Origin: Paramagnetospirillum caucaseum
GTDB taxonomy: Bacteria > Pseudomonadota > Alphaproteobacteria > Rhodospirillales > Magnetospirillaceae
Reading direction: 5' to 3'
NCBI RefSeq assembly: GCF_000342045.1
Contig: NZ_AONQ01000037.1
Location: 1 to 46,114, forward strand
DNA: 46,114 nucleotides
A program made the translations under genes and the position numbers. Shown here in pieces: positions 177 through 35,041 of this stretch (the stretch's first letter is position 1; the number at the start of each line of letters is the position of its first letter). The notes beneath the pieces were generated by a model. The model was not told the origin of the DNA. It did not search any database and worked only from the letters and a program-made list of their open reading frames with translations.

Positions 177-836
177 TCAGGCCGAGACGAGTTTAGCCAG
201 GTTCCTGAAAATGGCGAGCCCGATGGGGCCGCTGCGCTCAGGGTGGAATTGGAAGGCGGCGATGTTGCCGTGCTGAACGGCGGAGCAATAGCTTTCCCCG
301 CCATAGGTGGTCAACGCCAATCTGGCCTGGGGATCGCTGGGCCGCACGTAGAAGGAATGCAGGAAATAGACGTAGGAATCCGGGGCGATGCCGTCGAGCA
401 GGTTGCCGGTCCACGTCTCGCCCTGCGATGGCCGGATGCGGTTCCACCCCACCTGCGGCACCTTGCTGCGCAAGCCTTCCTCACGGGTCTCGTCGAAGCG
501 GACCACGTCGCCCTTCAGCAGTCCCAGGCCGCCATGGGTGCCGAATTCCCGGCTTTCCTCGAACAGAAGCTGCATGCCCAGGCAGATGCCGACGAAGGGC
601 CGGCCCGAGGCGGCGGCCTTTTCGATGGGGGCGATCAGATTGCGGGCGCGGATCTCCTCCATGGCGGTGCCGAAGGCGCCGACCCCGGGCAGGATCACCG
701 CGCCGGCATCGGCGATGGCGCCGGCATCATGGGTGACCAGTGGCTCCAGTCCGACCCGCTGGCAGGCCTGGGCGATGCTGAACAGATTGCCATGGGCGCA
801 ATCGATGATGGCGATAGTGGGCCTGGCATCAGTCAT
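177..836 (-). CDS. hisH: HisH-like glutamine amidotransferase subunit (O-antigen type paralogue)
   Basis: 219 aa, the full length for a HisH glutaminase. The nucleophile elbow GICLGMQLLFE places the catalytic Cys at residue 85, and the C-terminal FQFHPERSG supplies the His-Glu of the triad. HisH releases ammonia from glutamine and passes it through its HisF partner. The gene overlaps the end of hisF by 8 bp and is followed by wbpG rather than by other histidine genes. This matches the hisH2-hisF2-wbpG arrangement that serves acetamidino-sugar synthesis. The family is certain; the role in glycan rather than histidine synthesis rests on this context, and a bona fide his-operon copy should exist elsewhere in the genome. 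Confidence 0.93.
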   Translation of the reverse strand: MTDARPTIAIIDCAHGNLFSIAQACQRVGLEPLVTHDAGAIADAGAVILPGVGAFGTAMEEIRARNLIAPIEKAAASGRPFVGICLGMQLLFEESREFGTHGGLGLLKGDVVRFDETREEGLRSKVPQVGWNRIRPSQGETWTGNLLDGIAPDSYVYFLHSFYVRPSDPQARLALTTYGGESYCSAVQHGNIAAFQFHPERSGPIGLAIFRNLAKLVSA

Positions 837-1674
837 GGTCGGTCACCGCGGGCCGGACGGGAATGTGCGCCGCCGCCATGGCCTGCTTGAGGCTGTCCAC
901 GGAATTGGGTTGGACGCCGCGCGCCGAGTGGCCGTAATGGGCGTGTGATGAACTGGTTCCCACATCGGTCACCTGGATGGTGTGGTAGTGCAGGATCGAG
1001 GCCACCGCCACCGCGTCGGCTCCGGCCGTGGTGACGGCCTCGCAGACATGGGCGGGGGTTCCGGCCCCGCCATGGGCGATCACCGGAATGGGCACGGCGG
1101 CGGCGATGGCGGCGATCAGTTCCAGGTCGAAGCCCTTGCCGGTCCCATCCCTGTCCACCGAGGTCAGCAAGATCTCGCCGGCACCGGAGGCGGCGACCTG
1201 TTTGGCCCAGGTGATGGCGTCGCGGCCGGTGAATTCGCGACCGCAATCGGTGAAGCACAGATGGCGACCGTCGGGCTGGCGGATGGCCTCGATGGCCACC
1301 ACGATGGTGGACGAGCCGAACATGTTGGCCGCCTCGGCGATGAATTCAGGGCGGTTGATGGCGGCGGTGTTGATGGACACCTTGTCGGCCCCCGATTGCA
1401 GCGCCACCCGGATGTCGTCCACGCTTCTGAGGCCGCCGCCGACGCACAACGGAATGAAAATCTCGCGCGAGGTGCGCTCGATGATGTCGAGCAGGCTGTT
1501 GCGTTCGTACAGCGAGGCGACAGCGTCCTGGTAGAACAGTTCGTCGATACCCTCCGCCGAATAGTGCCGCGCGAACAGCTCGGGCTTGCCCAGGACGCGC
1601 AGCCCCTCCAGCTGGATTCCCTTGACCAGGTTGGGGGCCTTGATGTCGAGGCGGGCGATCAGGCGGACGGTCAT
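829..1674 (-). CDS. hisF: HisF-like imidazole glycerol phosphate synthase cyclase paralogue
   Basis: 281 aa from the ATG at 1674; an open frame continues further upstream but overlaps the sulfotransferase in another frame and has no HisF homology. The (beta/alpha)8 signature motifs are present: LIARLDIK with the first catalytic Asp, VGGGLRS, SVDRDGTGKGFD and VIAHGGAGT. The C-terminus carries roughly 30 residues beyond the usual HisF end, as is common in O-antigen paralogues. The gene sits in hisF-hisH-wbpG order, so it most likely channels ammonia from HisH to the sugar amidotransferase rather than making IGP. The sulfotransferase upstream ends 13 bp away. Confidence 0.92.
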   Translation of the reverse strand: MTVRLIARLDIKAPNLVKGIQLEGLRVLGKPELFARHYSAEGIDELFYQDAVASLYERNSLLDIIERTSREIFIPLCVGGGLRSVDDIRVALQSGADKVSINTAAINRPEFIAEAANMFGSSTIVVAIEAIRQPDGRHLCFTDCGREFTGRDAITWAKQVAASGAGEILLTSVDRDGTGKGFDLELIAAIAAAVPIPVIAHGGAGTPAHVCEAVTTAGADAVAVASILHYHTIQVTDVGTSSSHAHYGHSARGVQPNSVDSLKQAMAAAHIPVRPAVTDHD

Positions 1675-1687
1675 GGCGGGTGGCTCG

Positions 1688-2611
1688 TCACGACTCTTTT
1701 GGTGCTGGGGCCTCGACCGCCCGAGCCATGGTGTCGGTGGGCGGCTCGATGATGAAGGAATCCAGGGACATTCCGGCCTCGGCCAGGATGGCGCGGCAGC
1801 GCGCCACGTCCTCGGGGGTGAAGACCGATTTCCACTGGCCGATTTCGCCCGACCGGGTGAAGAAGCCCTTGTAGCCGGGGCGCGAATGGATGGGGCCGGC
1901 GGCCTCCTCCTCCTTGCGCACCACCTTGATGTCGGAATCGCGCACGGCGCGGTCCAGCACGTCCACATCGACGGGAATGTTGAGATATTCCAGCAGCGGC
2001 CGGTAGGAGGCATGGGGATAGAGCATCATGTTCTCATAGGTGATGGAGAACATGTCGCGCTTGGCGCCGATGCGCTGCATGTCGGTGTAATGACGGATGT
2101 AATTGCCCAGGTCACCGTCGATGATCTCCTGGACCATGGCGAACTTGTCCGACAGCTCGGGGCGGTACTTGTATTGGTTGTAGAAAAACGAGACCAGGTA
2201 ATCGAGCGGATTACGGTAGACGAAGACCAGCTTGCCGTCGAAATACTCGAGGAAACGGGTGGTGTGGCAGTTGATGATGTCGTCATAGGGCAGACCCTTG
2301 AAGACATGTCGCCACTTGTCCCTGGGCTTGTAGTTGTCGGGATTGGCCAGATAGGCTTCGCGCGTATTGGGGATTATGTCGTCGGTCATGGCGTAGGTGA
2401 CCAGCGTGTCGCGATCCACGTAGTACTTGTACAGGTAATTGGCCAGGAAGATGCGCAGCTTGTTGGTTCCCGATTTGGGGATCGAGTTGCAGATGGCCAC
2501 GTGGCTGTCGATGCGCGGATGGATGACGGCGCGATAGAACGCCTGCTTCAAGAGCGGCTTGACCGGTCCCGCCAGCCGCGAGCCCGCCACGTAAAGGGGT
2601 TGAAACTTCAT
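1688..2611 (-). CDS. PAPS-dependent carbohydrate sulfotransferase
   Basis: 307 aa. Residues 44-50 (IPKSGTN) form the 5'-phosphosulfate loop. FVYRNPLDYLVSF is the 3'-phosphate binding motif with its conserved Arg and Ser region, and GEIGQWKSVFT near the C-terminus matches the RKGxxGxWK-type PAPS motif. The enzyme should transfer sulfate from PAPS to a hydroxyl or amine of a glycan or lipid, releasing PAP. It overlaps the preceding radical SAM gene by 4 bp (ATGA), so the two are co-translated. A cysQ gene for PAP removal lies at 35653 in the same cluster. No signal peptide is seen, so action is cytoplasmic. The acceptor is unknown. Confidence 0.85.
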   Translation of the reverse strand: MKFQPLYVAGSRLAGPVKPLLKQAFYRAVIHPRIDSHVAICNSIPKSGTNKLRIFLANYLYKYYVDRDTLVTYAMTDDIIPNTREAYLANPDNYKPRDKWRHVFKGLPYDDIINCHTTRFLEYFDGKLVFVYRNPLDYLVSFFYNQYKYRPELSDKFAMVQEIIDGDLGNYIRHYTDMQRIGAKRDMFSITYENMMLYPHASYRPLLEYLNIPVDVDVLDRAVRDSDIKVVRKEEEAAGPIHSRPGYKGFFTRSGEIGQWKSVFTPEDVARCRAILAEAGMSLDSFIIEPPTDTMARAVEAPAPKES

Positions 2612-3615
2612 GATTCTTCCTTCTGTGCGGGCTTGGAGCCAGCCTCAGGTGTCGCGAACAGGTCCATGTAATCCCAGCAATCCTTGCACACCGGCAATTC
2701 GTCGTGGCGCATGTCCACCAGCATCTCGCGGTACTTGGTGATGACCCGGTCGCTCCAGATCTCCGCCAAGGTCTGGGTCGCGGTGTCGCCCACCAGCATC
2801 AGATTGTCCGGATCATTGCAGCAGGCACTGACCGAACCGTCCCAGTTGATGGACAGCTTGTCGAAGATTTCGGGGCATTCCGGATGGTTCTTGACCAGGC
2901 TCTCGTGTTCCTTGAGCCAGCGCAGGCGCTCGACCTCGTGGGGCTTGAGACGGACGGCGTTGAGATCGACCAGATCCAGGATGGTGCGCCCGACGCTGAC
3001 CTTTTCCACCAGGCCGGTGACGCGCTTGGTGAAGGCCTCCACCTGCGCGGGTGTCTCGTAGGTGATGGTGGTCGAGATGTGCAGGTAGGGAAAGGCACGG
3101 TCGCCCCTGACCCGGGCCAGCATCTCGATGGTCTCCAGCAGGCCGTCGAAGAAGTCGGTATTGCGCATCTCCTCGTAGGATTTGCGGTCCACGCCCTGAA
3201 ACGAGAATTTCAGCGATTTCAGGCCGGCATCGATCAGCTGCCCGGCCAGTTCCTCGGTCAGCTTGCTGCCATTGGTGTTCATGTGGCTGACGATGCCTGC
3301 GCGCGAGCAGGCCTCGATAAAGTCCACCACCTTGGGATGGAGCAGCGGCTCGCCCCAGCGGATGAAGCGGATGGGGGTGCGGGTGGGGGCCAGCTGGTCG
3401 AGGACGCGGTAGAACACCTCCTCGCTCATCAGGCCCTTTTCCCTGCGCTGCGAGAAATTACCAGTCGGGCACATCAGGCAGCGGAAGTTACAGGTATTGG
3501 TCAGTTCCAGGTCCACCAGCCGGGGAAAGGCGGGCAGTCCGGCGTACTTCTCGGCCGAGTTGCCCTGGTTGCACAGGGCGTAAAGAGGATCGAGGGGATT
3601 GGCACGCTCGGTCAT
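2608..3615 (-). CDS. Radical SAM protein with SPASM-like C-terminus
   Basis: 335 aa from the ATG at 3615 (4 bp after the upstream gene's stop); a longer start at 3636 would add seven residues and overlap that gene. The [4Fe-4S]-SAM motif CNFRCLMC lies at residues 42-49, followed by the GEPLLHP strand and NTNG. The C-terminal region has CCND and CKDC cysteines typical of SPASM/twitch auxiliary cluster domains. It is probably cytoplasmic and may modify a sugar nucleotide or a peptide; the substrate cannot be read from sequence. It is co-translated with the sulfotransferase downstream and lies behind a B12-type radical SAM gene, so the three may act on one intermediate. Confidence 0.85.
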   Translation of the reverse strand: MTERANPLDPLYALCNQGNSAEKYAGLPAFPRLVDLELTNTCNFRCLMCPTGNFSQRREKGLMSEEVFYRVLDQLAPTRTPIRFIRWGEPLLHPKVVDFIEACSRAGIVSHMNTNGSKLTEELAGQLIDAGLKSLKFSFQGVDRKSYEEMRNTDFFDGLLETIEMLARVRGDRAFPYLHISTTITYETPAQVEAFTKRVTGLVEKVSVGRTILDLVDLNAVRLKPHEVERLRWLKEHESLVKNHPECPEIFDKLSINWDGSVSACCNDPDNLMLVGDTATQTLAEIWSDRVITKYREMLVDMRHDELPVCKDCWDYMDLFATPEAGSKPAQKEES

Positions 3616-3619
3616 GGCT

Positions 3620-5671
3620 CTATTCCGCGGCGACACGGGCCTTGACCCGCTCGCATTTCCGCCAGAAGAAGGTGATGTCGTAGTATTCCAGGATGCGCGG
3701 GATGGTCAGCGACATGTCCTTGCCGTACATGGACACGCCGGTGTTCAGGATGTCGCGGATCGACTTGGCGTCCCACCACAGGCGGTAGGTCACCTGGCCG
3801 GCATAGGTGACCAGCGGACCGCTTTCGTCGCGCCCGTTGTACCAGGACATGACGTCGAAGGCGAAGGGGACCTCTTCCTCGCCGGACTCCAGGCGACCGG
3901 CGAAGGCGTCGTGGGCCATGCGCACGGTGGTGGCCCAGCGCCGTGCCTCGCGCAGGCTTTCGGCCTGGTCGGCGGTGACGCGGCCCTCGGCCAGTTCCAG
4001 CAGGCATTCATAGGCGAAGTCGAGGGCGGCTACCGCCTGCTGGCTGAACACTTGGCCACGGAAGCGGCGGATCAGGTTGTCACCGATCTCGCCGTTGAGC
4101 AGACGTGCATGGTTCTCTGGGCGGGCATAGAATTCCTCGACGGCAGCCTGGGTGTCGAACAGTTCACCTTCGGACTGGCGCAGATATTCGGCGTAGATGC
4201 CGGCGACCGGGCTGTCGCCCTGGGCCGAGCGGCCCCAGATCTTCAGCATCAGGTCGTGCTGGGACAGGCCGAGTTCGCGCACATGGCGCCGCACGATGTC
4301 GAACTGGGGTTCGGAGAACACCGTGGAGATGAAGCCGAAGCCGCGGCATTCCAGATATTCGGCGAAGGACATGGTGCTGGTGGCAATGCAGACCTCTTCG
4401 ACCTCGAAACAGGTCTCGCCGTAATAGGTGCCGTGCTGACGGGCGACCAGGCGCCATTTGGTCTGCATGGCGTATTTCTCGCGGCAGGCCTTGGACGCCA
4501 TCTCGGTGCCCTTGAGCATGCACAGCGTGTTGGAGGAAATCCAGTCGATGCCGGCCTCGGTGTTCATGCGGTAGGCGTCGAAGAAGCTTTCCTTGGTCTC
4601 CAGCGGCATGGGCATGATCAGGTCCGAGGAGGACAGCATGCCGCGCTTCTTGATCTCCGAGTGCACCATGTGGAACTGCTCGGGCGTCATGTTCTTGCGC
4701 TTGACCACGTCCAGGGTATCCAGGTTCATGGATTGCAGCGCGGTCAGGATCTTGAAGCGGTTCTGCATCAGGTCGGAGACGTGCAGGATGCGCTCGTACT
4801 GGCTCTTGCCGGTGGTGAAGTCGAAGGCCATGGGCCAGTGGTAGGTGTCCTGGAGCTTGCGGATGTGCTCGGCGATCTCCACGTCACGCTTGAAGCTGCC
4901 AAAGTTGGAATCGGTGATGGCCAGGATCAGCTCGGGCTTGTCCTTGACCCGCTCGGCGATGAAGTCCAGTTCGGCGCGGATGCGGTCCAGGCTGAAGGCG
5001 GCGATCTTGTTGTACCAGTCCTGGGCTGCGTTGCAGAAGGTGCAGGAATAGGGGCAGCCGCGCGCCGTCTGGATCATGGGCGAATGCTCGCCGTCGAAGA
5101 ACTGGTCCATCAGGCCGTCGAGGAAGGGCGAGGGAATGACGTCGATGTCCATCAGGCGCGCCGGGCGCTCGCCCTTGAGCAGGTGACCGTCATGGACGGC
5201 CATCAGGCCTTCCTGCACCTCGGCCTTCAGCGTCGCCAGGGTATCGCCGGCCATCAGGCGACCGAGCAGCTTGGCGAAGGGGACCTCGCCCTCGCCATAG
5301 GCGAAGAAGTCGATTTCCGGGTGGCTGGACAGCAGCTCGATGCATTCCCCGTCATTGTCGGGGAATTCCGGCCCGCCGGCGATGCAGGTCACGTCCGGCA
5401 GCATGGCCTTGGCGTGGCGCATGGACAGATAGTTGAGCTCGGCGTTCCAGCAATAATGGGACATGCCCACCACGTCCGGCTTCCACTCGGCCACCAGCCG
5501 TTCGAACTCGTTGGGGTCCTCGACGATCCGGATGTCGAGGTTCTCGGGGCCGCAGACCTTGCGGCCATAGGCGGCGATATAGCCCAGCGCGATGGGCATG
5601 AAACTGGAATGGCGCCCCGAGGTGATGTGCTTGAGATGGCTCAACAGGATGCGCAACGGCTTGGTGGACAT
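3620..5671 (-). CDS. B12-binding-type radical SAM protein
   Basis: 683 aa. An N-terminal Rossmann-like B12-binding region (about residues 1-150, with KPDVVGMSHY and CIAGGPEF) precedes the radical SAM core, whose CPYSCTFC motif lies at residues 206-213. The C-terminal 250 residues are helical with no motif I recognise. Members of this class carry out methylations, rearrangements or C-C bond formation. No DxHxxG base-off motif is visible, which is usual for this group. Spacing to neighbours is a few base pairs, so it is part of the minus-strand operon. The 692-aa open frame on the other strand is its antisense shadow. Confidence 0.87.
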   Translation of the reverse strand: MSTKPLRILLSHLKHITSGRHSSFMPIALGYIAAYGRKVCGPENLDIRIVEDPNEFERLVAEWKPDVVGMSHYCWNAELNYLSMRHAKAMLPDVTCIAGGPEFPDNDGECIELLSSHPEIDFFAYGEGEVPFAKLLGRLMAGDTLATLKAEVQEGLMAVHDGHLLKGERPARLMDIDVIPSPFLDGLMDQFFDGEHSPMIQTARGCPYSCTFCNAAQDWYNKIAAFSLDRIRAELDFIAERVKDKPELILAITDSNFGSFKRDVEIAEHIRKLQDTYHWPMAFDFTTGKSQYERILHVSDLMQNRFKILTALQSMNLDTLDVVKRKNMTPEQFHMVHSEIKKRGMLSSSDLIMPMPLETKESFFDAYRMNTEAGIDWISSNTLCMLKGTEMASKACREKYAMQTKWRLVARQHGTYYGETCFEVEEVCIATSTMSFAEYLECRGFGFISTVFSEPQFDIVRRHVRELGLSQHDLMLKIWGRSAQGDSPVAGIYAEYLRQSEGELFDTQAAVEEFYARPENHARLLNGEIGDNLIRRFRGQVFSQQAVAALDFAYECLLELAEGRVTADQAESLREARRWATTVRMAHDAFAGRLESGEEEVPFAFDVMSWYNGRDESGPLVTYAGQVTYRLWWDAKSIRDILNTGVSMYGKDMSLTIPRILEYYDITFFWRKCERVKARVAAE

Positions 5672-5694
5672 CGGTAACCTCGTGGAGGGTCGGT

Positions 5695-6321
5695 TTAGAT
5701 CTGGCCGCGACCGCGCAGCACGCGCAGGGCCTCGGCCAGTTTGCGGGCGTCGGCGAGCGCGTCGTGGGCCGCCAGGTCACAGGTGAATCCCAGGACTGAA
5801 TCCAGCTGGCCGGTCACCAGCCGGGGCCTCGGAATGCCGGTACGCTCCACCAGGATGGGGCGCAGATTGGTGAAGGTGGCGTTGGCAAGCGGAAATTCAA
5901 GGCCGTACAGTTCGGCATTCTCGCGCATGATGACATCGTCGCCGCCATTGCTCGCCCCCCAGCCCTCAGGCGTCATGAAGGTGGCGAAGCGGTCCAGCGC
6001 CTCGGGCAGATCAAGCCCCTCGCGGTCCACCCGCGACTGCTTGATGCCGGTGAGATCCTTGAAATAATCCGACAGGACCGGATTGAAACGGGGCCGGACC
6101 ATCAGTTCCAGCCGGTCGGTTTCCTCCAGGGTCAAGGCATCCAGCTTGACCGCGCCCACCTGGACCAGTTCGCGGTATTCGCCCGGCCCCGACCAGTCGC
6201 GGGCCATGGATCCTTCCCAGGCCGTCCATTCGGTATCGAAGACGACGAATTCGGGGTCGTCGGAGAAACGCATTGGCGGGAAACTCAGGGTCTCCACAGC
6301 ACGGATGGTGTCCAGGGACAT
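5695..6321 (-). CDS. DEDDh 3'-5' exonuclease family protein (KapD-like), copy 1
   Basis: 208 aa from the ATG at 6321, which has a GGAAG ribosome site 4 bp upstream; a TTG start at 6336 is also open. VVFDTEWTAWEGS gives the first Asp/Glu pair, the DLTGIKQ segment is typical of the KapD/ERI-1-like branch, and HDALADA supplies the last His/Asp of DEDDh. The expected middle Asp lies in SNGGDD. The family degrades RNA or DNA 3' ends, which is unexpected in a glycan operon. A diverged second copy lies at 9045-9644. An inverted repeat resembling the cluster operator sits 27 bp upstream of the start. The family is well supported; its role here is unknown. Confidence 0.82.
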   Translation of the reverse strand: MSLDTIRAVETLSFPPMRFSDDPEFVVFDTEWTAWEGSMARDWSGPGEYRELVQVGAVKLDALTLEETDRLELMVRPRFNPVLSDYFKDLTGIKQSRVDREGLDLPEALDRFATFMTPEGWGASNGGDDVIMRENAELYGLEFPLANATFTNLRPILVERTGIPRPRLVTGQLDSVLGFTCDLAAHDALADARKLAEALRVLRGRGQI

Positions 6322-6374
6322 TCTGCTTCCGCTCAATCAAGGTGCATGTTCATCGCACGAACAGGCGGCAAGAA

Positions 6375-7247
6375 TCAAGGATGAGAGACGGGCCTGGGGC
6401 CGTCGTCAGGCTGCCGGCGGATCGCCAGCAGGCCGCCGGCGATGATCAGCACCGCTCCTGCCACGTCCGCCCCGCCGGGTGTCTCGCCGAAGAGCAGACT
6501 GCCGCCCAGCACCACCACCACGAAGGAGAGGTATTGCAAGGTGGCGACCAGAAAGGCCGGGATCCGCCGCAATGCCTCCAGGAAGAGGATCTGCGCCAGG
6601 TTGGCAATGGTTCCCACGGCCAGGTATCCGGCCAGTTCCAAGGCGGTGGGCTTTTGCCAGACCAGGGGCAGGACCAGGGCCGACAGACCCAGGCTGACCA
6701 GGGTGAACCACAGCAGGGTGGTCAGGCCGTCGTCGCTTCGACCGATCACCCGGGCCTGGACGGTGCACAAGGCCTCGAACACCGCCGAGGCCGCCGCCAG
6801 CAGGAACGGCCATGACGGCAGGCCCAGATCCGGGCGGGCGATCAGCACGATGCCGCAAAATCCCGCTCCGACGCCCAGCCAGCCGTTGCGTCCCGGCTGT
6901 TCGGCCAGCAGCGGCCAGGACAGTGCGGCCAGCAGCAGCGGCGACGTGAAGACCACCGCCGTGTAGGTGGCGGCGGTCATGTGGCCGATGGCGGCGAAGC
7001 CGGCCAGCATGGCGGCAAATCCCAGGATGGCCCGGACCAGCTGTTGTTTCGGCACCCGGCTCGGGACCAGCGGGCCGCGCAACCGGATGAGCAGCGCCAC
7101 CATGGGCAGGCCCAGCAGGAAGCGGAAGAACACCACCTCGGGGGCCGCATGGCTTCCTCCCAGCCACTTCAACAGCAGCAAGGTGGCGCCGCCCGCCATG
7201 GCGGCGCCCAGGGCCAGGGCGATTCCCGCCCGATGGACGGGTGTCAT
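6375..7247 (-). CDS. EamA/DMT-family inner-membrane transporter
   Basis: 290 aa, almost wholly hydrophobic, with about ten predicted membrane segments in two repeated EamA halves (residues about 8-140 and 150-285), the usual size for drug/metabolite transporters. It overlaps ptmE by 4 bp (ATGA), so it is translated with a nonulosonate gene. DMT proteins move small metabolites; in glycan clusters they can carry sugar nucleotides, lipid-linked sugars or precursors. Which applies here cannot be told from sequence. No signal peptide is needed because the first helix starts at residue 7. Confidence 0.85.
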   Translation of the reverse strand: MTPVHRAGIALALGAAMAGGATLLLLKWLGGSHAAPEVVFFRFLLGLPMVALLIRLRGPLVPSRVPKQQLVRAILGFAAMLAGFAAIGHMTAATYTAVVFTSPLLLAALSWPLLAEQPGRNGWLGVGAGFCGIVLIARPDLGLPSWPFLLAAASAVFEALCTVQARVIGRSDDGLTTLLWFTLVSLGLSALVLPLVWQKPTALELAGYLAVGTIANLAQILFLEALRRIPAFLVATLQYLSFVVVVLGGSLLFGETPGGADVAGAVLIIAGGLLAIRRQPDDGPRPVSHP

Positions 7248-8293
7248 TCCAGTCCGTTGACGAAGTCGGCGTTGGCCTTGACGAAATCGTCGGGCTGGCC
7301 GATGTCGAGCCAGTATTCCCGGATGGGGAAGGCCACCACCTTGCGTTCCGCGGCGATCAGGTCGGTCAGCAGGGTGGTCATGTCGTGATAGGTTCCCTGG
7401 GGCAGCAGGGCGAGCACGCTTGGCTCCAGCACGTAGATGCCGGCATTGACGAAGAACTTGTTGACCGGCTTCTCGTCGATGCCCCTGACCTGGTGGTCGT
7501 CCATGTTGACCACGCCGAAGGGAACCTCGAACTCGTATTCCCGCACGCCGATGGTGGCGTCGGCGCCGTTCTCCTGGTGGTATTCCAGCAGGCTTTCGAA
7601 ATTGACGCTGGTCAGCAGGTCGCCGTTCATCACCATCAGGGGGGAGGCCGGAGGCTCGGGGATCAGGCCCAGGGCGCCGGCGGTGCCCATGCGCTGGTCC
7701 TCCTCGATGTAGCGGATCTCGCAGCCCCAGCGCGAGCCGTCGCCGAAATGCTCCATCACCATTTTACGCTTGTAGTTCACCGCGAGGTAGAAGCGGTGGA
7801 ACCCGTGCTTGATGTAGCTTTCCAGGATGATTTCCAGCACCGGCTTGTTGCCGACGCGCAGGAGCGGCTTGGGCGTGCTCTGGGTCAGCGGGTGCAGTCT
7901 GGTGCCCAGTCCGCCGGCCATCAACACCACCCAATTGTCACGGGTGGAGGGGCCGCGCTCCAGTTCCTCGATGGTCTCGACGCCGACCACGATGCCTTCC
8001 GAATCCACCAGGGGAATCTGGCGGACCTTCAGCGTGTGCATCATGGTCAGGATATTCTCGCGCGAATCCTCGTTATTGGCGGTCTTGGGCGTCGGGTTCA
8101 TCACCTGGGCAACGCTGTCCTCCAGCCGATGCCCGCTGAGCAGGCCGCGGCGGACATCGCCATCGGTGACGGTGCCCAGCAATTTGCGCCGCGGGTCCAC
8201 CACCAGCAGGGTGCGGCCCGACACCTCGTCCAGGCGCCGCACCGTGTCGAGGATCGTCACGTCGGATGAGATAAGGCAATTCATCCACTTCAT
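7244..8293 (-). CDS. ptmE: CBS-domain nucleotidyltransferase, PtmE type (GDP-amino-sugar synthesis)
   Basis: 349 aa. Two CBS repeats fill residues about 5-115, followed by a full nucleotidyltransferase domain with the signature LMAGGLGTRLHPLT...KPLL (about residues 122-145), NGDLL and the EKP...NAGIY elements. This fusion is that of Campylobacter PtmE, which makes GDP-glucosamine from glucosamine-1-phosphate at the head of the GDP-linked legionaminic acid pathway. It overlaps neuD upstream and the DMT gene downstream by 4 bp each. Neighbouring legC, legG and legI homologues support the role. A different hexosamine-1-phosphate or NTP preference is possible. Confidence 0.87.
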   Translation of the reverse strand: MKWMNCLISSDVTILDTVRRLDEVSGRTLLVVDPRRKLLGTVTDGDVRRGLLSGHRLEDSVAQVMNPTPKTANNEDSRENILTMMHTLKVRQIPLVDSEGIVVGVETIEELERGPSTRDNWVVLMAGGLGTRLHPLTQSTPKPLLRVGNKPVLEIILESYIKHGFHRFYLAVNYKRKMVMEHFGDGSRWGCEIRYIEEDQRMGTAGALGLIPEPPASPLMVMNGDLLTSVNFESLLEYHQENGADATIGVREYEFEVPFGVVNMDDHQVRGIDEKPVNKFFVNAGIYVLEPSVLALLPQGTYHDMTTLLTDLIAAERKVVAFPIREYWLDIGQPDDFVKANADFVNGLE

Positions 8294-8940
8294 TTGAACG
8301 TCCCGATCTCCTTGGCGGGAATTCCGAGCGCCAGCTTGCCGGCGGCCACATCGCGCACCACGGCGGCCCCGGCGCCGATCACCGCCCCCGCTCCGATGCG
8401 GATGCCTTGTATCACACTTGCCCCGGCTCCGACATGGGCACCTTCACCGACGCTCACCTCGCCGGCCAGCACGGCGCCGGGGGCAATATGGGCATGGGCG
8501 CCGATCCGGCAATCGTGGTCGATGGCGGCGCGGGTGTTGACGATGGCCCCGTTGGCCAGGCGGCAGCCGGGTTGGATGACGGCACCCGCCATGACCTGGG
8601 CGCCGTCGGCCAGTTCAACCTCGCGACCGATCACCACCGAGGGGTGGATGATGGTGGCGAAGCGGTAGCCGAGGGCGGCGAAGGTGGCCTGGATTCCGGC
8701 CCGCGACGAGGAATCCCCGACCGAGCCGATGCCGTTGACCAGCATCACGTCGGCGCAGGCAAACGTACGGACCCAATCATCGCCACCGGTGACCGGGATT
8801 CCCAGCACCTTGGTGCCATGGCGCGAAGAATCGGCATCGGCAAGGCCAAGCACGCGGTGGCCGGTCGCCAGACAGGCATCCAGCACCACCTTGGCGTGGC
8901 CGCCGGCACCGATGATGATCAGGGGGAGATGGGAGGGCAT
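8290..8940 (-). CDS. neuD: NeuD/PglD-family sugar O/N-acyltransferase
   Basis: 216 aa. An N-terminal Rossmann-like PglD_N half (IIIGAGGHAKVVLDA) is followed by left-handed beta-helix hexapeptide repeats from about residue 90 onward. The IDHDCRIGAHAHIAPGA stretch holds the catalytic His expected from PglD. In this pathway the enzyme would acetylate the 4-amino group left by LegC (the LegH step), or O-acetylate the nonulosonate as NeuD does. No purine-rich ribosome site precedes the ATG; the region before it is C-rich and holds a 15-bp direct repeat and a mini-ORF. It is the first gene of a transcript with its own promoter at 9033-9062. Confidence 0.88.
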   Translation of the reverse strand: MPSHLPLIIIGAGGHAKVVLDACLATGHRVLGLADADSSRHGTKVLGIPVTGGDDWVRTFACADVMLVNGIGSVGDSSSRAGIQATFAALGYRFATIIHPSVVIGREVELADGAQVMAGAVIQPGCRLANGAIVNTRAAIDHDCRIGAHAHIAPGAVLAGEVSVGEGAHVGAGASVIQGIRIGAGAVIGAGAAVVRDVAAGKLALGIPAKEIGTFK

Positions 8941-8967: not shown

Positions 8968-8972
8968 TCCGG

Positions 8973-8984
8973 CACGCTACCGCA
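8973..8984 (-). promoter_or_regulatory. ops-like antiterminator recruitment element in the neuD leader
   Basis: The minus strand reads TGCGGTAGCGTG, an 11/12 match to the enterobacterial ops element (GGCGGTAGCGTG as I recall it) that pauses RNA polymerase and recruits RfaH. It lies in the 5' leader, about 45 bases after the predicted transcription start and 33 before neuD, which is the normal ops setting. An RfaH/NusG paralogue is encoded at 31970-32470. Recognition by that protein is inferred. Confidence 0.5.
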
Positions 8985-9032
8985 GTCCGGGTGAGCCAAA
9001 ACAGGCCCGCCACGGCTGGGGAAACGGCGCGC

Positions 9033-9062
9033 AGCATAGTGCGTTCATGTCGTGAACGTCAA
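9033..9062 (-). promoter_or_regulatory. Sigma70-type promoter with internal operator, upstream of neuD
   Basis: TTGACG (9062-9057), an 18-bp spacer, then TATGCT (9038-9033). The spacer holds most of an inverted repeat CGTTCA-N5-TGAACG (9058-9042), a natural repressor site. The block GCTTGACGTTCA-N5-TGAACGC is repeated exactly, apart from the N5, at 33175-33152 in front of the MarR-like regulator gene. It lies over the last codons of the upstream exonuclease gene and should start a transcript near 9026, leaving an 86-base leader. Confidence 0.65.
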
Positions 9063-9644
9063 GCCGCACGGCGGCCCGAAGGCTCCGATCCGGGCCAGGG
9101 CGCCGGCCAGGGCACGGGCATCGTCAAGGGCATCGTGGCGGCGCCCGTCGGCGGGAGCGGCGGTGCCCATCAGGGCGGGGAGGTCGGCGCTGACCAGCTG
9201 GGCGCTGGGCAATCCGGTGCTGGCGATCAGCAGCGGATGGCCGTCCTGGAAGCGGTTTTCCTCCAGGGCCAGGGTCAGGCCTTCGAGGTGGCAATTCGCC
9301 TGCAGGATCGTTTCGTCGCCGCCATTGCTCCAGATGGCACCATCATCGCCGACGAAGCGGGTGAAGGCGTCCAGCGCCTGGGCCAGGGGCACGCCGCCGG
9401 CATCCAGCTCGGCCTGGGTGATGCCGGTCAGATCAATGAAATACGCGCTCAGGATGAAATTGATTCGGGGCCGAATCAAAAGGGACAGGGCGGCGGTTTC
9501 GGCCAGCCCGTTCGTGTCGCGCTCAAGGCGGATGGCGCCGATCTGCACCACCTCCATGGTCTCGCCCGGCCCGCTCCAGCCGCGTGCCTGGGCGCCTTCC
9601 CAGGTGGTCCATTCCATATCGAAAACGAAGATGGGGGGGGTCAT
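9045..9644 (-). CDS. DEDDh 3'-5' exonuclease family protein (KapD-like), copy 2
   Basis: 199 aa from the ATG at 9644, with AAAGG about 12 bp upstream; a TTG at 9653 is an alternative. FVFDMEWTTWEGA, DLTGITQAELD, SNGGDE and RRHDALDDA align in order with copy 1 at 5695, so the two are clear paralogues with the DEDDh residues retained. It lies between legI (155-bp gap) and neuD. Its stop codon overlaps the neuD promoter region. The function in a glycan cluster is unexplained. The fold and family are well supported; nuclease activity and substrate are unknown. Confidence 0.82.
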   Translation of the reverse strand: MTPPIFVFDMEWTTWEGAQARGWSGPGETMEVVQIGAIRLERDTNGLAETAALSLLIRPRINFILSAYFIDLTGITQAELDAGGVPLAQALDAFTRFVGDDGAIWSNGGDETILQANCHLEGLTLALEENRFQDGHPLLIASTGLPSAQLVSADLPALMGTAAPADGRRHDALDDARALAGALARIGAFGPPCGLTFTT

Positions 9645-9799: not shown

Positions 9800-10858
9800 T
9801 CATGGGTCGATCAACTCGTCGGTCCGGTAGCCGTGTCCGGCGACACGGCCCAGCATGTGCCAGTACAGCAGCGGCGAGAGGCCGGTGCCGGGGCGCTTCA
9901 CCGCCAGGTCCGCCTCGGTCAGCACGGTACCCGCCGCGATGGGCCGCGCGGCCACCAGGCTGGCGCGGGCCACCTTGGCCACCTGCAGCTCCGCCGGTGT
10001 GGGCGCCTTCTCGGCCACGCCCAGGGCCTGCTCGACCTCGCGGATGGCGCCGACCATGGCGGCCAGCTCGTCAGGCTCCAGCGAGGCCTTGTGGTCGGGG
10101 CCGGGCAGGGCGCGGTCCAGGGTGAAGTGCTTTTCCACCACCATGGCGCCACGCGCCGCCGCCGCCACGGTGACGGTGATACCCTGGGTGTGATCGGAAT
10201 AGCCCACCGGCAAGCCGAAATGGGCGGCCAGCCCATCCATGGCCCGCAGGTTGACCTGGTCGAGGGGGGCGGGATACTCGGTGGTGCAGTGAAGCAGGGT
10301 GACCCGCCCGGCCAGCGGAGCAAGGTCACGGGAGGCCAGGACGTCCTGGCTGGGGTTTCCCACGGGCTGGGTGACGCCGAAGGCCAACACCGCCAGGGCG
10401 CCTTCGATCTCGCCCATGGTGCTCATGCCGGTGGACAGGATGATGGGCAGGCCGGTGCGCGCCGCCGCCAGCAGCAGCGGCCCGTGCACCACGGCGCCCG
10501 ATGACAGCTTCAGCAGATCGATGCCCACTTCGTCCACCAGGAAGCGCAGGCTGCCCAGGTCGAAGGGTGTGGACAGGAAGCGGATGCCTCGGCTACGGCA
10601 GCGTTCCTGCAAAGCGGGATAGCACTCCTTGGGCAGCACCAGACGGCGCAGCATGTCCAGCTGGCTTTCACCGCTGCCGGTGGTGACCTTCTGGTACTCG
10701 GCCTTGCCGGCGGCACCGGTGGCCAGGGCCTCGGGCTCGAAGGTCTGGAACTTCACCGCGTCGGCTCCGGCCCTGGCGGCGGCGTCGATCAGCTCCAGCG
10801 CCAGGGCGGGATCGCCGTTATGGTTGACGCCGGCTTCGGCGATGATGAACACGCCCAT
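9800..10858 (-). CDS. legI: Nonulosonate synthase (LegI/NeuB), full length with SAF domain
   Basis: 352 aa, normal for NeuB. The TIM-barrel begins FIIAEAGVNHNGD, with VKFQTFEPEAL, STPFD, LLKLSSG, ILSTGMS, LHCTTEYP, GYSDHT and EKHFTLD all present. The C-terminal 65 residues form the antifreeze-like SAF domain (ARASLVAARPI...GTVLTEADL). It condenses PEP with a 2,4-diamino-trideoxy hexose to give legionaminic acid, the step after LegG. The gene is 3 bp downstream of legG on the same strand. Because legG and legC accompany it, legionaminate is more likely than N-acetylneuraminate. A second, shorter NeuB is encoded at 28723. Confidence 0.92.
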   Translation of the reverse strand: MGVFIIAEAGVNHNGDPALALELIDAAARAGADAVKFQTFEPEALATGAAGKAEYQKVTTGSGESQLDMLRRLVLPKECYPALQERCRSRGIRFLSTPFDLGSLRFLVDEVGIDLLKLSSGAVVHGPLLLAAARTGLPIILSTGMSTMGEIEGALAVLAFGVTQPVGNPSQDVLASRDLAPLAGRVTLLHCTTEYPAPLDQVNLRAMDGLAAHFGLPVGYSDHTQGITVTVAAAARGAMVVEKHFTLDRALPGPDHKASLEPDELAAMVGAIREVEQALGVAEKAPTPAELQVAKVARASLVAARPIAAGTVLTEADLAVKRPGTGLSPLLYWHMLGRVAGHGYRTDELIDP

Positions 10859-28722: not shown

Positions 28723-29568
28723 CTACAGTCCCATGGCGGCGGGGGTGGGCTTCAGCTTCTCGAGGATCTTGGCCTCGGCCTCGCTGACCTTCTTGACGCC
28801 GTCGCCCATGGCGGTCTCGACGGCACGGACCATCTTGACCAGCTTCTCCAGGCCGACCAGTTCCACCGAGGCGGCCTGGTCCGAGCCGTACATGGCGCGA
28901 TCCAGCGTGATGTGGCGCTCGAGAGACGTAATCCCCATGGCGGCGGCGCCCACGGACACGGCCAGGCCGGTCTCGTGGCCGGAATAGCCCACGCCGCAGC
29001 CGTAGCGGGCGCGCAGCGTCTCGATGCACTTGAGGTTGGCGTCGGCCACCGCCATGGGATAGGTGCTGACGCAGTGCATCAGCTCATAGGGGCACTTGGC
29101 GGCCTTGAAGATTTCGACCACCGTGTCGATGTGCTCGAGCGAGTGCATGCCGGTGGAGATGAAGGTATGCTTGCCTTCCTCGGCGATCAGCTTCAAGAGC
29201 GGGAAGTTGCCCAGCATGGCCGAGGCCACCTTGTTGTACTTGCCGTCGAACTGGCGCAGGAACTTCTGGGCCTCCACGTCCCAGGCCGAGGCGAACCACT
29301 CGATGCCCAGCTGCTTGCAGTAGCGGTCGATCTCCTTGTATTCGGCGACACCGAATTCCAGGCCTTCCTTTTGCTGGCGCTGGGTGGTGCCCCAGGGGCT
29401 TTCGCGGGGCGAATCCAGCAATTCCTGGGAATAGACCAGATCGAGGGTGCGCTTCTGGAATTTGACGGCGTCGGCGCCGAACCTGTGGGCACCCTCGATC
29501 AGCTTCTTGGCGATGTCGAGGTCGCCGTTATGGTTGATGCCGATCTCGGCGATGATGAAAATGGACAT
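28723..29568 (-). CDS. neuB: Short NeuB/SpsE-family nonulosonate synthase lacking SAF domain
   Basis: 281 aa. The barrel motifs FIIAEIGINHNGD, VKFQKRTLDLVY, WFASAWD, FISTGMHS, MHCVSTYP, GYSGHE and LERHITLDRAM are clear, but the protein ends where the antifreeze-like SAF domain of the full-length paralogue at 9800 begins. Shorter NeuB proteins are known among synthases that use phosphorylated sugars, such as KDN-9-phosphate and sialic-acid-9-phosphate synthases. The KdsC-like phosphatase 5 bp upstream fits such a phosphorylated route. The product is therefore probably different from that of the left-hand pathway. Confidence 0.89.
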   Translation of the reverse strand: MSIFIIAEIGINHNGDLDIAKKLIEGAHRFGADAVKFQKRTLDLVYSQELLDSPRESPWGTTQRQQKEGLEFGVAEYKEIDRYCKQLGIEWFASAWDVEAQKFLRQFDGKYNKVASAMLGNFPLLKLIAEEGKHTFISTGMHSLEHIDTVVEIFKAAKCPYELMHCVSTYPMAVADANLKCIETLRARYGCGVGYSGHETGLAVSVGAAAMGITSLERHITLDRAMYGSDQAASVELVGLEKLVKMVRAVETAMGDGVKKVSEAEAKILEKLKPTPAAMGL

Positions 29569-30080: not shown

Positions 30081-31973
30081 TCAGCGCCCCTTGCGCAACG
30101 GGACCATGGCCGGGCTGTCCAGTCCCTCCAGGCTGGCGGTTTCCTCGACCAGCTTGCGCAGCGAGCGGTAGCTGCCCTCGTTCTGGGTTCTGGAGACGAA
30201 TCCCAGCTTGACGGCCAGCCATTCGCGCAACAGGCGCCAGGTCGGGCCGAGCCCGGATTCCCCCGCCACCTTGAGCAGTACGAGGAGCGGCAGGAAACGG
30301 CGCAGCCGGTAGGCGAGCTCCGGGTAGCAGATGACCGCCAGCCCCAGGTTGCGCTTGCGCAGCAGGCCGAACAGCGACGGCAGTTCGGGCGCCTCGCCCT
30401 CCAGTTCCATGGCGTCCTGGGTGCCGTGCAGCGAATCCACGGCCAGGCTGCGCTCCACCAGCTGCTTCGGATTGGCGAAGTAGCCGTCGATGGGGCGTTT
30501 GCGCTGGCGCTTGAAATAGTTGGTGTCGCCCAGCAGGACCTTACGGTAATGCTCCAGGCCGTACTTGGCCACGTAGGCGTGATTGACCTCGATAGTCACC
30601 AGGCTGCGCCATGTGCGCGCGGTCAGGACCGGCTGGTCGGTGAAATTCAGCGTCGAGGTCTCGTCATGGGCGTCGCGGTCGGAAATCTGCGACAGATAGC
30701 GCTCCTCGCCCTCCAGGCCGGCGGCAATCATTCCATGGCTGCGGGCGAAGTCGTAGAGCGGCGTGCCGGGCAGCGCCTGGGCATAATTGATGGACAGGTC
30801 GTTGGGGTTCTGGTGCGGCGCCAGGGTCATGGCGAACTTGCAGAACTCGATGGTCTCGCGGATGGTCTGGGTGGTCTCACCCGGCATGCCGACGACCAGC
30901 TGCACCACGGTGTAGAGACCGGCCTGCACGGTCCACTCCATGGCGTTGTAGTTGTCGGCCAGCTTGACCTTCTTCTCCATGACCTGGAGCATCTTCTCGC
31001 TGCCGGTCTCCATGCCGTACATCAGCGTGACGCAGCCGGCATCGCGCATCATGGAGATCAGCTCGGGATTGACACAGTTCACCCGCATGCCGGACACGCG
31101 CCACAGCATGTCCAGCGGCTTGATCTTGGCGCAGAACTCGGCCAGCCAGCGTTTATCGGTGCCGAAATTCTCGTCACCCACCACGAAGAAGCCGACGTCG
31201 TGATGCGCCTTGAGTTCCGTCAGGCGCGCCACCAGCAGGTCGACGGGAATGTAGCGGATGCCCTTGTCGAAGCGATGGCAGAAGGTGCAACGCGCCACGC
31301 AACCCTTGGAACAGCGGATGGTGGCCAATTTCTTGCCTCGGCGGTGTGGCTGGGAGGCACGGGGCTCGCGGGTCAGCCAGAATTCCTCCTCGCCGTCGCA
31401 CAGGGGATCGTAGACGTAGATGTCGAGAGTGCCGGCACCCTCCAGGTCGGACCAGCAGATGTCGAAGATCTGGCTGGCCGGCAGCGAGGGCGGATACCCC
31501 GTGTTGACCAGCTGGCCATCCTTGTTCAGGTAGACTAGGCCGGGAATATCCGTGTAATCGGCGGGATCGATGGTGCTCTCGGCGCGGCGAACCACCTCCA
31601 GGAAGCATTCCTCGCCCTCGCCGGTGGCGCACATGTCCACGCGCGAGCGGCGCAGCAGCACCTCGGCGCTGGCCGCCAGGTTGCCGCCCACCACGATCAG
31701 GCAATGGGGCAGGGCGGCCTTGACCGCGTCGGCCAGGCGCCTGGTATAGCTGAAGGCGGTGGAAACCACGGCACTGATGCCCAGAACGCGGGGGTTCTGA
31801 GCCACGATGTGGCGAACCGCCTCGTCGAAATCGGGGCGCAGGGCGTCGATGTGGTAGAAACCCACATCCTCGATGCCCTTCTTGCGCAGGTAGTTGAGGA
31901 TCGCAAGGCTGCCGAAGGGCGGCGTGCTGGTCGGCCTTGGCCGGATCGGGGTGGTGACGATCAAGGCCTTCAT
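30081..31973 (-). CDS. B12-binding-type radical SAM protein
   Basis: 630 aa from the ATG at 31973, which overlaps the antiterminator stop by 4 bp; a GTG at 31982 is also open. The N-terminal B12-binding region spans about residues 1-150 (VGGNLAASAEVLLRR, ATGEGEE). The radical SAM motif CVARCTFC is at residues 225-232, followed by FFVVGDENFGTDKRW and YGMETGSEKML. A long C-terminal region (about 190 residues) has no motif I can name. It is the first enzyme gene after the two regulators of this operon. The substrate is unknown. Confidence 0.87.
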   Translation of the reverse strand: MKALIVTTPIRPRPTSTPPFGSLAILNYLRKKGIEDVGFYHIDALRPDFDEAVRHIVAQNPRVLGISAVVSTAFSYTRRLADAVKAALPHCLIVVGGNLAASAEVLLRRSRVDMCATGEGEECFLEVVRRAESTIDPADYTDIPGLVYLNKDGQLVNTGYPPSLPASQIFDICWSDLEGAGTLDIYVYDPLCDGEEEFWLTREPRASQPHRRGKKLATIRCSKGCVARCTFCHRFDKGIRYIPVDLLVARLTELKAHHDVGFFVVGDENFGTDKRWLAEFCAKIKPLDMLWRVSGMRVNCVNPELISMMRDAGCVTLMYGMETGSEKMLQVMEKKVKLADNYNAMEWTVQAGLYTVVQLVVGMPGETTQTIRETIEFCKFAMTLAPHQNPNDLSINYAQALPGTPLYDFARSHGMIAAGLEGEERYLSQISDRDAHDETSTLNFTDQPVLTARTWRSLVTIEVNHAYVAKYGLEHYRKVLLGDTNYFKRQRKRPIDGYFANPKQLVERSLAVDSLHGTQDAMELEGEAPELPSLFGLLRKRNLGLAVICYPELAYRLRRFLPLLVLLKVAGESGLGPTWRLLREWLAVKLGFVSRTQNEGSYRSLRKLVEETASLEGLDSPAMVPLRKGR

Positions 31974-32470
31974 TGGGGGCACGCCCTGACCGCGTCACGG
32001 GGCAGATCGACCCGGACCTCTCCCTGCATCATGTTCATCAGCACCACGACTCTCTCGCTGTCTGTCAATTTCAGGAGGGTTCCGATCTGGTCGGCCAGGG
32101 GGCCGTCGATGACACGCACCTGCTCGCCCGGCTGCGGGGTGGGCGGCATCCCGTCCACGATCAGCCCGCCGACCTCGCGCGAGCGGATGGCTTCGATCAC
32201 CTCTTCAGGCACCGGCAGGGGCGTCTCGCCCTGACAGACCAGATGGCTGACCCCGATGGTGGAGCGGATGGCCCGCCAGCGGCTGCTCTCGCTGTCCATG
32301 GAGACGAACAGATAGCGGGGGAACAGCGGGCGCAGAACTTTTTCCTCCCGTCCGGCGTGCCGGCGGGTGCGGCTGAAATGCGGGCAATAGGAGGTGAAGC
32401 CCTGGCGCCCGAGATGGGTTTCGGCATTCCGTTCGGCATTGGGCTTGGTGTAGACCACGTACCAGCTCAT
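31970..32470 (-). CDS. NusG/RfaH-type transcription antitermination protein
   Basis: 166 aa, RfaH size. SWYVVYTKPNAERNAETHL begins the NGN domain, with LFPRYLFVSMD at about residue 50. The KOW region is PGEQVRVIDGPLADQIGTLLKL (about 112-133). It is a specialised paralogue rather than the housekeeping NusG, which lies with ribosomal genes. Such proteins bind elongating polymerase at operon leaders and allow it to read through long low-expression clusters. It overlaps the MarR-type gene and the radical SAM gene by 4 bp. Two leaders in the window (8973-8984, 35030-35041) carry ops-like sequences it might use. Confidence 0.89.
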   Translation of the reverse strand: MSWYVVYTKPNAERNAETHLGRQGFTSYCPHFSRTRRHAGREEKVLRPLFPRYLFVSMDSESSRWRAIRSTIGVSHLVCQGETPLPVPEEVIEAIRSREVGGLIVDGMPPTPQPGEQVRVIDGPLADQIGTLLKLTDSERVVVLMNMMQGEVRVDLPRDAVRACPQ

Positions 32471-33126
32471 GAGGGGCCATCCTCGGGGCTTGCGCCGCGG
32501 TTCACGTGCAGGACGTGAAGCGTGAAGATCCGCTGCTCGGGGAAGGTCCGCCGCGCCAGTTCATAGGCCGCCTGGGTCTCCGGCATGGCGGTGATCAGCA
32601 CCGCGTCCACCGGCGGCAGTTCCCCGAAATTCCGCGCCACCGGAGCGCCGCAATCACCGGCGATGCCGTTTTCATCCAGGATGGCCACCACCTTGATGCC
32701 GGCGGCATGGGACACCAGTTCCGCCACGTCGGCCAGATCGCCCCCACCCACCAGGGCGATGCGGGTCCAGCCGTTCTCCTTGCACTTGGCGAAGGCCTCC
32801 AGGCATTGCAGCCGGGCATATTTCAGCAGCTTGAACGATTGCGACAGGTATTCCGCGGTCAGGCGGCCCTTCTCGCTGAGGCCCTGGGGTGTCAGGTAGT
32901 AGCAATAGCGCCGGGCCGGAGCCTGGGTGACCTTGATCAGCCCCTTCTTCAAGCAGCGCTTGAGATAGGAATTGACCAGCCCCAGGGCCACGTCCAGCTG
33001 GCTGGCGATGGAGCGCTGGGTCAGCTGGGAATCGCCGTGGACCGCCGTCAGGAGCCCCAGCATGATCTGGGAATCCTGGTCGAAGCGGGAGGCCAGAACC
33101 TCGTTGGTGTTGCCTGAATCGCGCAT
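32467..33126 (-). CDS. MarR/EPS-type winged-helix regulator fused to a Rossmann-like domain
   Basis: 219 aa from the ATG at 33126; the frame stays open to 33225, but a promoter (33144-33173) lies inside that extension, which favours the shorter start. Residues about 12-85 form a winged helix (LTQRSIASQLDVALGLVNSYLKRCLKKGLIKV) like the EPS-associated MarR family. The C-terminal 85 residues are a Rossmann-like domain (RIALVGGGDLADVAELV, VVAILDEN) resembling the N-terminal half of PglD/NeuD. Small metabolite or nucleotide sensing by that domain is a reasonable guess. It is the first gene of the operon and probably controls it. Confidence 0.84.
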   Translation of the reverse strand: MRDSGNTNEVLASRFDQDSQIMLGLLTAVHGDSQLTQRSIASQLDVALGLVNSYLKRCLKKGLIKVTQAPARRYCYYLTPQGLSEKGRLTAEYLSQSFKLLKYARLQCLEAFAKCKENGWTRIALVGGGDLADVAELVSHAAGIKVVAILDENGIAGDCGAPVARNFGELPPVDAVLITAMPETQAAYELARRTFPEQRIFTLHVLHVNRGASPEDGPS

Positions 33127-33143: not shown

Positions 33144-33173
33144 CTTCTAGCGCGTTCACCCGATGAACGTCAA
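33144..33173 (-). promoter_or_regulatory. Promoter with internal operator for the regulator/antiterminator operon
   Basis: TTGACG (33173-33168), an 18-bp spacer, then TAGAAG (33149-33144). The inverted repeat CGTTCA-N5-TGAACG (33169-33153) lies between the boxes. Block and spacing match the neuD promoter at 9033-9062. Transcription would begin near 33137, leaving about 11 untranslated bases. Position in front of a winged-helix gene suggests autoregulation. Confidence 0.65.
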
Positions 33174-35029: not shown

Positions 35030-35041
35030 GGAGGTAGCGTG
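35030..35041 (+). promoter_or_regulatory. Second ops-like element, in the gmhA leader
   Basis: GGAGGTAGCGTG, an 11/12 match to ops. GGTAGCGTGCCGG (35033-35045) is identical to the neuD leader element (8981-8969). The 12-mer GCGCCGTTTCCC precedes both (35013-35024; 9030-9019 on minus), with different spacing. The GGAGG could instead be a ribosome site for a GTG at 35039, so this call is weaker than the neuD one. Confidence 0.35.

Follow-up and report, generated by a model that had tools for sequence, protein, structure and literature searches.

Introduction

One of the closest described counterparts of the locus analyzed here is the RfaH/ops system of Escherichia coli, for which the available part of PMC5995543 sets out the RfaH residues that read ops DNA, four of which contact bases (R73 included), and those of the T6 pocket. 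A stem-loop of the JUMPstart sequence lies upstream of ops, according to the portion of PMC2864571 available. In the accessible sections of Wang et al. 2020 (PMC7593976), the detailed mode of recruitment is described as known only for E. coli RfaH, and how specialised NusG paralogues find their operons outside E. coli is stated as open. 'Monomorphic' RfaH homologues showed ops-independent activity in an E. coli assay, as reported in the accessible part of a preprint (PMC13015549). The literature searched contained no description of an alphaproteobacterial ops element, with most subscription journals outside the reach of that search.

An earlier note on a stretch of 46,114 nucleotides from Paramagnetospirillum caucaseum (hereafter the window) had placed an ops-like word before neuD and an RfaH paralogue in the same cluster. 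We computed the element, its conservation, the covariation of its hairpin, its co-occurrence with rfaH-like genes, and a palindrome that the promoters have in common. In our view, the leader of neuD very probably contains an ops-type element of an alphaproteobacterial kind, on which an RfaH-like protein would act in trans, with a putative MarR operator at the promoter.

Results

The neuD leader contains an ops core

The core TGCGGTAGCGTG (8984-8973, minus strand) is identical to GGCGGTAGCGTG at 11 of 12 positions and retains C3, G4-G8, T11, and G12 of that type of core, which include the C3:G8 pair and the TG pause bases; 32 nt separate it from the neuD ATG at 8940. Upstream, a consensus scan identified a sigma-70-like promoter, TTGACG-18-TATGCT (9033-9062, minus strand), that reaches into the 3' end of the preceding exonuclease gene (9045-9644). 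The first gene behind the element is neuD itself (8290-8940, minus strand), encoding a NeuD/PglD-type sugar acetyltransferase (TIGR03570, 222.1 bits; cut-off 160.8) and being one of 5 among the 43 called genes before which the gene caller found no Shine-Dalgarno sequence. It is followed by a gene for a ptmE-like nucleotidyltransferase with a CBS domain (7244-8293, minus strand; we keep the name ptmE from the earlier note) and by the remainder of the run (177-7247, minus strand), which encodes an EamA transporter, an RNase_T exonuclease, two radical SAM proteins, and sulfotransferase, His_biosynth-type, and glutamine amidotransferase proteins. The minus-strand run is unbroken from 8940 to 177, with gaps of at most 53 nt. 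Like ops, the core lies downstream of a promoter-like site, in what is predicted to be the leader of a long polysaccharide operon. As judged from the sequence, the ops-like word that had been noted in the neuD leader after a promoter is real and the observation is confirmed.

Two RNase_T-type exonuclease genes (PF00929; 9045-9644 and 5695-6321) make an odd pair for a glycan cluster: the former ends in the neuD promoter and the latter lies behind the third palindrome described below. The window also contains two genes for NeuB-type synthases (9800-10858 and 28723-29568) in addition to NeuD and epimerase genes, and seems to encode more than one nonulosonic acid pathway.

The exact 11-mer GCGGTAGCGTG is unique in the 4.86-Mb genome, the copy in the neuD leader being the only one. 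When up to one mismatch was allowed, 69 sites were found in the genome (the neuD site counted) versus 280 for the reversed control, and the 12-mer with up to two mismatches was not enriched in the window, with 11 matches versus 7.75 expected; the loose 12-mer is not specific. Since words of the GCGGTAGCGTG type contain TAG, their rarity in coding frames is to be expected. At this level of comparison the core word alone is weak evidence, and it is the extended element that carries the proof.

A second word, GGAGGTAGCGTG, is located on the plus strand at 35030-35041, between asnB and a gmhA-like gene, and has GGTAGCGTGCCGG in common with the neuD site. It was rejected as a second ops, scoring only 6.3 bits (E 3.6) with the covariance model R2 described below and having A in place of ops C3; a functional element is not supported at this site and is unlikely there. 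Of the four genomic copies of GGTAGCGTGC, two are inside the window; of the remaining pair, one precedes a topoisomerase gene and one an ORF that has no Pfam match, and both are absent among the R2 matches listed. In the genome of the window, the former copy (L063, around 1501) precedes the gene for topoisomerase subunit A by about 125 nt, and in a relative, G010, in which no rfaH-like gene was detected, GGTAGCGTG (L110, around 1501) precedes a gene of similar size by 126 nt. The occurrence of GGTAGCGTGC/GGTAGCGTG at this place is apparently conserved, yet different from the hairpin-ops element.

The core is part of a conserved hairpin-ops element

With models R1 and R2, the core was recognized as the downstream part of an extended ops element (8968-9025, minus strand), a leader hairpin followed by TGCGGTAGCGTG. 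The 3' arm of the hairpin, TCACCCGGAC (8994-8985, minus strand), directly abuts the core, giving an element that consists of the hairpin with this arm and then T-GCGGTAGC-N-TG. CACC was invariant in 66 of 66 distinct copies of the element, only GCGGTAGC having been selected for, and the TG positions of the ops pause were T in 89% and G in 82% of the same copies. In 11 of 11 loci (L068-L078), GCGGTAGC forms part of (T/G)CACCCG-NNNN-GCGGTAGC and follows the rfaH-like stop at a distance of 43-62 nt.

The upstream arms co-vary with the TCACCCGGAC-type arm, for example CTCCGGGTGA with TCACCCGGAG and CTCGGGGTGA with TCACCCCGAG. For the arm combinations that actually occur, hairpin energies added up to -999, versus -864 (standard deviation 15) for permuted ones, and none of 300 permutations reached this sum, although this test is inflated by the relatedness of the copies. 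Pair counting on the model-fitted alignment supported the hairpin on three of five measures, among them the share of hairpin cells that pair (55.1% versus 51.4% after shuffling) and covariation (0.135 versus 0.088); neither value was reached by any of 500 shuffles. On the two other measures there was no excess, neither in pairs changed on both sides (6 versus 5.8 shuffled) nor in pair types (16 versus 16.4 shuffled). Rfam searches with seven source sequences returned no match at the gathering score, JUMPstart RNA RF01707 included, and nothing relevant was returned at E ≤ 5 for five source sequences.

The training set of model R1 held the window element and elements of several genomes of the family; R1 scored the window site at 39.3 bits, its sole match in the genome at E ≤ 0.1. 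To remove this circularity, model R2 was built from 46 copies without the window and without the listed family genomes. R2 scored the window site at 36.9 bits (E 1.4e-8 within the window; match 8968-9030), with the next best match at 9.5 bits, and recovered 11 of 11 rfaH loci L068-L078 at 25.1 bits or more, while missing the distant rfaH loci L080 (13.2 bits) and L081 (10.3 bits). The maximum among 60 control loci, selected because they contain GGTAGCGTG or GCGGTAGCGTG with one mismatch, was 18.4 bits. These controls were 60 of the 64 loci L001-L030, L063-L066, and L083-L112; the three window loci were left out, as was L111, which is an rfaH locus with an element. In 5 of 29 class-survey loci checked, the element was identical to a training copy.

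In three distant loci (L080-L082, from G076, G077, and G078), GCGGTAGC is found at or behind the rfaH-like 3' end in another setting, without TG; two of the three have CCGCCAGTGCGGTAGC, and in L082 GCGGTAGC falls inside the reading frame. This arrangement is possibly a further variant of the element. Locus L079 ends within the rfaH-like gene.

The element co-occurs with rfaH-like genes

We scanned GTDB genome contigs for relatives of the RfaH-like protein and kept the best 80 of 492 loci, of which 70 carry alphaproteobacterial names (including Bradyrhizobium and M. fulvum), 9 are named only as Proteobacteria, and 1 as Chloroflexi. Within 200 nt behind the rfaH-like stop, GCGGTAGC was present in 59 of these 80 loci, the word itself being what picked the 59, versus 0.37 matches expected from the remainder of the same DNA. 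Five more of the best 80 have the element elsewhere in the locus (L203, L205, L200, L186, and L212; none of these copies was in model training), one has a weak variant (L199), and 15 have no element in the DNA scanned, some of their contigs ending soon. The same-strand run behind the element had a median of 8 genes and 9.8 kb among the 45 loci with at least 8 kb downstream, 26 of these runs reaching the end of the locus.

Across 387 genomes of the window's class (its own included), the element (R1, E ≤ 1e-4 plus strict filters) was found in 44, an RfaH-like protein (E ≤ 1e-15) in 94, and both in 42 (Fisher 2e-27); that is, the protein was present in 42 of 44 genomes with the element versus 52 of 343 others. 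Conversely, the element was missing at E ≤ 1e-4 from 52 of the 94 genomes with the protein, and only 2 of 293 rfaH-like-negative genomes have one. These two (G105 and G267) encode only NusG-looking proteins, apart from a 39-residue fragment in G267. The 42 genomes with both hold 44 elements, of which 24 lie within 300 nt behind rfaH, 12 elsewhere on the same contig (1.4 to 647 kb away), and 8 on other contigs.

Within the family, 15 of 55 genomes (own included) have RfaH-like protein matches at E ≤ 1e-10. R1 detected the element at E ≤ 1e-5 in 13 of these 15, a count that is circular as most are R1 training members, and in none of the 40 negative genomes, which are unaffected by this; at E ≤ 0.1, five negative genomes give weak R1 matches (E 0.019 to 0.099). 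In the phylum survey, the element was found in 12 of 397 genomes, four of which represent one family in another class; in three of its four loci (L289, L291, L295, and L298) the element lies within 300 nt behind the rfaH-like gene.

The window encodes an RfaH-like NusG paralogue

A 166-aa NusG/RfaH-type open reading frame is present at 31970-32470 (minus strand), as had been claimed, with Pfam NusG and KOW matches; only one further gene of the NusG family was found in the genome. The downstream gene (30081-31973) overlaps the stop of the rfaH-like gene, so that the window lacks the stretch behind rfaH in which the element usually lies. Among six families compared, the protein matches TIGR01955 best (139 bits, under the cut-off of 144.5); it scores 91.6 bits against UpxY (cut-off 100) and 54.3 bits against LoaP (cut-off 125). 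Of the residues with which E. coli RfaH reads ops, K10, H20, R23, and Q24 are kept and R73 is replaced by I72; of the autoinhibition residues, E48 is replaced by R47 and F130 by L, and I93 is kept. The equivalent of E. coli RfaH F56 is F55.

The proteins of the 59 element-bearing loci among the best 80 of 492 follow a similar pattern, with the T6-pocket residues Q24 in 59 and R23 in 53, H20 in 32 (N in 25), T72 and G74 in 59 each, R73 in 1, and E48 in none. The R73 position is hydrophobic in 58 of 59, and at the K10 position 54 of 59 proteins carry Q, H, or R. Proteins of the 15 element-less loci in the same set look alike at these residues.

In the AlphaFold2 model of the window protein (pTM 0.66), the C-terminal domain (CTD) is predicted to be all beta with a pLDDT of 91.4, and a beta-barrel CTD was predicted for the 67 window and locus proteins modelled. 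When the N-terminal domain of the model was compared by Foldseek, polymerase-bound RfaH (8pen_P) matched with a TM-score of 0.88 (target length) and an rmsd of 1.9 over 99 columns, and matches include polymerase-bound RfaH and NusG; the model thus predicts an RNA polymerase-binding NGN domain. Of the proposed RfaH paralogue, the RfaH-like part stands and the canonical part does not: because the protein is under the TIGR01955 cut-off, is without R73 and E48, and has a predicted beta-barrel KOW domain, sequence and model mark it as an RfaH-like relative rather than canonical RfaH.

The neuD and marR-rfaH promoters share a palindrome

The rfaH-like gene is overlapped by 4 nt by a gene for a MarR/HTH_24 regulator (32467-33126, minus strand). 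Its match to TIGR04176 (MarR_EPS; E 4.8e-16, 58.7 bits) is below the cut-off of 88, and six relatives score 55.5-68.7 bits. A palindrome that the earlier note missed is common to the neuD and marR-rfaH promoters, which have the same layout, TTGAC-GTTCANNNNNTGAAC. At neuD, the putative MarR operator GTTCACGACATGAAC (9043-9057) overlaps two parts of the promoter, the -35 hexamer and the spacer, as well as the final codons of the exonuclease gene; at marR-rfaH, the putative operator GTTCATCGGGTGAAC (33154-33168) lies directly behind TTGAC. A third, imperfect operator-like palindrome, GTTCGTGCGATGAAC (6348-6362), between the EamA gene and the exonuclease gene 5695-6321, is perhaps part of an internal neuD-operon promoter under the same regulator.

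The pattern GTTC(A/G)N5(T/C)GAAC has nine genomic occurrences, versus six for the reversed control, and is not rare by design genome-wide. Three of the nine fall within the 46-kb window (0.057 expected; P 3e-5). Of the six outside, five are inside genes and the sixth precedes a sugar epimerase/dehydratase-like gene. This only intergenic palindrome outside the window (L243, around 1501; G000:C16:68894-68908) has TTGACG nearby, and the gene behind it is a possible distant member of the regulon.

Among the relatives, the palindrome lies 600-900 nt upstream of rfaH, before a MarR-type gene, in 68 of 78 loci, with 129 matches in this interval versus 0.35 expected. Of the 25 known elements away from rfaH (20 from the class survey and 5 from the GTDB loci), 17 were evaluated, L262 being left out as its sequence extends only 90 nt upstream of the core; 15 of the 17, the window included, have the palindrome within 250 nt upstream of the element, and L258 and L259 have none in that interval. 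The palindromes of L205 and L249 lie between the element and divergent marR-rfaH genes and may serve those genes instead. From the position of the palindrome, we infer that it is bound by the MarR protein, which probably represses the neuD promoter.

Discussion

The RfaH-type circuit proposed for this alphaproteobacterium gains comparative support from the 59 of the best 80 of 492 loci, the co-occurrence across 387 genomes, and the hairpin. The neuD operon is probably under double control, of initiation by the MarR protein and of elongation by the RfaH-like protein, which would act in trans because its gene sits in its own marR-rfaH operon 23 kb away. Transcription of neuD would start at the promoter whose -35 region carries the palindromic MarR operator, and the nascent leader would first pass the hairpin with its TCACCCGGAC arm. 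The later steps are modelled on E. coli with regard to pausing, recruitment, and antitermination: polymerase would pause at GCGGTAGCGTG, the GGTA loop of the non-template strand, which the C3:G8 pair closes, would recruit the RfaH-like protein, and the bound protein would exclude NusG/Rho, keeping polymerase, perhaps with the ribosome, processive through the neuD operon. By the same analogy, the element probably lets polymerase read long surface-sugar operons to the end.

Because the hairpin is conserved with compensating arm changes, and since in E. coli the annotated ncRNA rirA covers the same waaQ leader, the hairpin and GCGGUAGC could instead form mainly an RNA leader signal, to which the RfaH-like protein or some other factor binds as RNA, with the likeness to DNA ops being secondary. 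We regard this as improbable, given that GCGGTAGC-N-TG retains the bases recognized in DNA by E. coli RfaH (PMC5995543, in the part available) and that the hairpin arms vary and the core does not; this invariance is partly by construction because the core was the selection criterion. The site could also be a mere consensus pause or attenuator for housekeeping NusG/Rho and the rfaH-like gene a bystander in glycan clusters, as the accessible portions of two papers would allow: ops itself is a consensus pause (PMC5995543), and rfaH-like and polysaccharide genes are clustered anyway (PMC7593976). We give this very little credence, since 291 of 293 rfaH-like-negative genomes lack the element and elements on other contigs or up to 647 kb from rfaH still co-occur with it. 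NusG is, to our knowledge, near universal. That a short GC-rich word matches by chance in a leader without any element would agree with the lack of enrichment of the loose 12-mer in the window and with the presence of GGTAGCGTGC before the topoisomerase gene and of GGTAGCGTG before the like-sized gene of an rfaH-like-less relative. This explanation is hardly credible, being already contradicted by the R2 scores, 36.9 bits for the window site versus at most 18.4 in the 60 loci selected for carrying this word unchanged or with one mismatch; L063, L066, and L110 are absent among the R2 matches listed.

For an ops-type element served by the RfaH-like protein, a broader reading carries about even chances in our estimate: that Alphaproteobacteria and at least one other class retain an ancient RfaH/ops system predating R73 and fold-switching autoinhibition, in which a monomorphic RfaH-like protein reads hairpin-ops, a MarR-type repressor encoded in the same operon governs the promoters, and a portable operator-hairpin-ops cassette marks the regulon. 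If this is true, fold switching may have arisen later than ops recognition. A conserved element beside genes for NusG paralogues also makes the question of operon finding directly testable, and poses a puzzle, as proteins without the autoinhibition residues, of a kind reported as ops-independent in the accessible part of PMC13015549, are found beside an ops-type site. In practice, the element could be used to predict, for Bradyrhizobium, Magnetospirillum, and many uncultured Alphaproteobacteria, which surface-glycan operons are part of regulons of this kind.

The locus shares with E. coli RfaH/ops the core G-C-G-G-T-A-G-C-N-T-G, which in both lies in the leader of a long polysaccharide operon, an upstream hairpin (in the waaQ leader, a hairpin is predicted in the same place before GCGGTAGCGTG), and a NusG paralogue with the H20/R23/Q24 pocket. 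It differs in that the window protein is without R73 and E48 and has a CTD predicted as a beta-barrel, that the RfaH-like gene is often paired with a MarR gene beside the target, and that the arm sequence TCACCCGGA(C/G) is unlike that of JUMPstart, with no match given by Rfam. UpxY, LoaP, and TaA are likewise NusG paralogues dedicated to particular long clusters (PMC7593976, available sections), although the window protein scores lower against UpxY and LoaP (91.6 versus a cut-off of 100 and 54.3 versus 125). The RfaH cluster CL4 of Wang et al. 2020, in the sections of PMC7593976 available, comprises RfaH-like proteins with an HTH regulator and envelope genes, and the window protein would belong there by these features; to that description we add the ops-type element and the palindrome common to the two promoters. 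The 'monomorphic' cis-encoded RfaH homologues of PMC13015549, as described in its accessible part, resemble the window protein in their predicted NusG-like CTD, in the position of the gene beside a long operon, and in the absence of some ops-binding residues, with the difference that a protein of that look is tied here to a conserved ops-type element.
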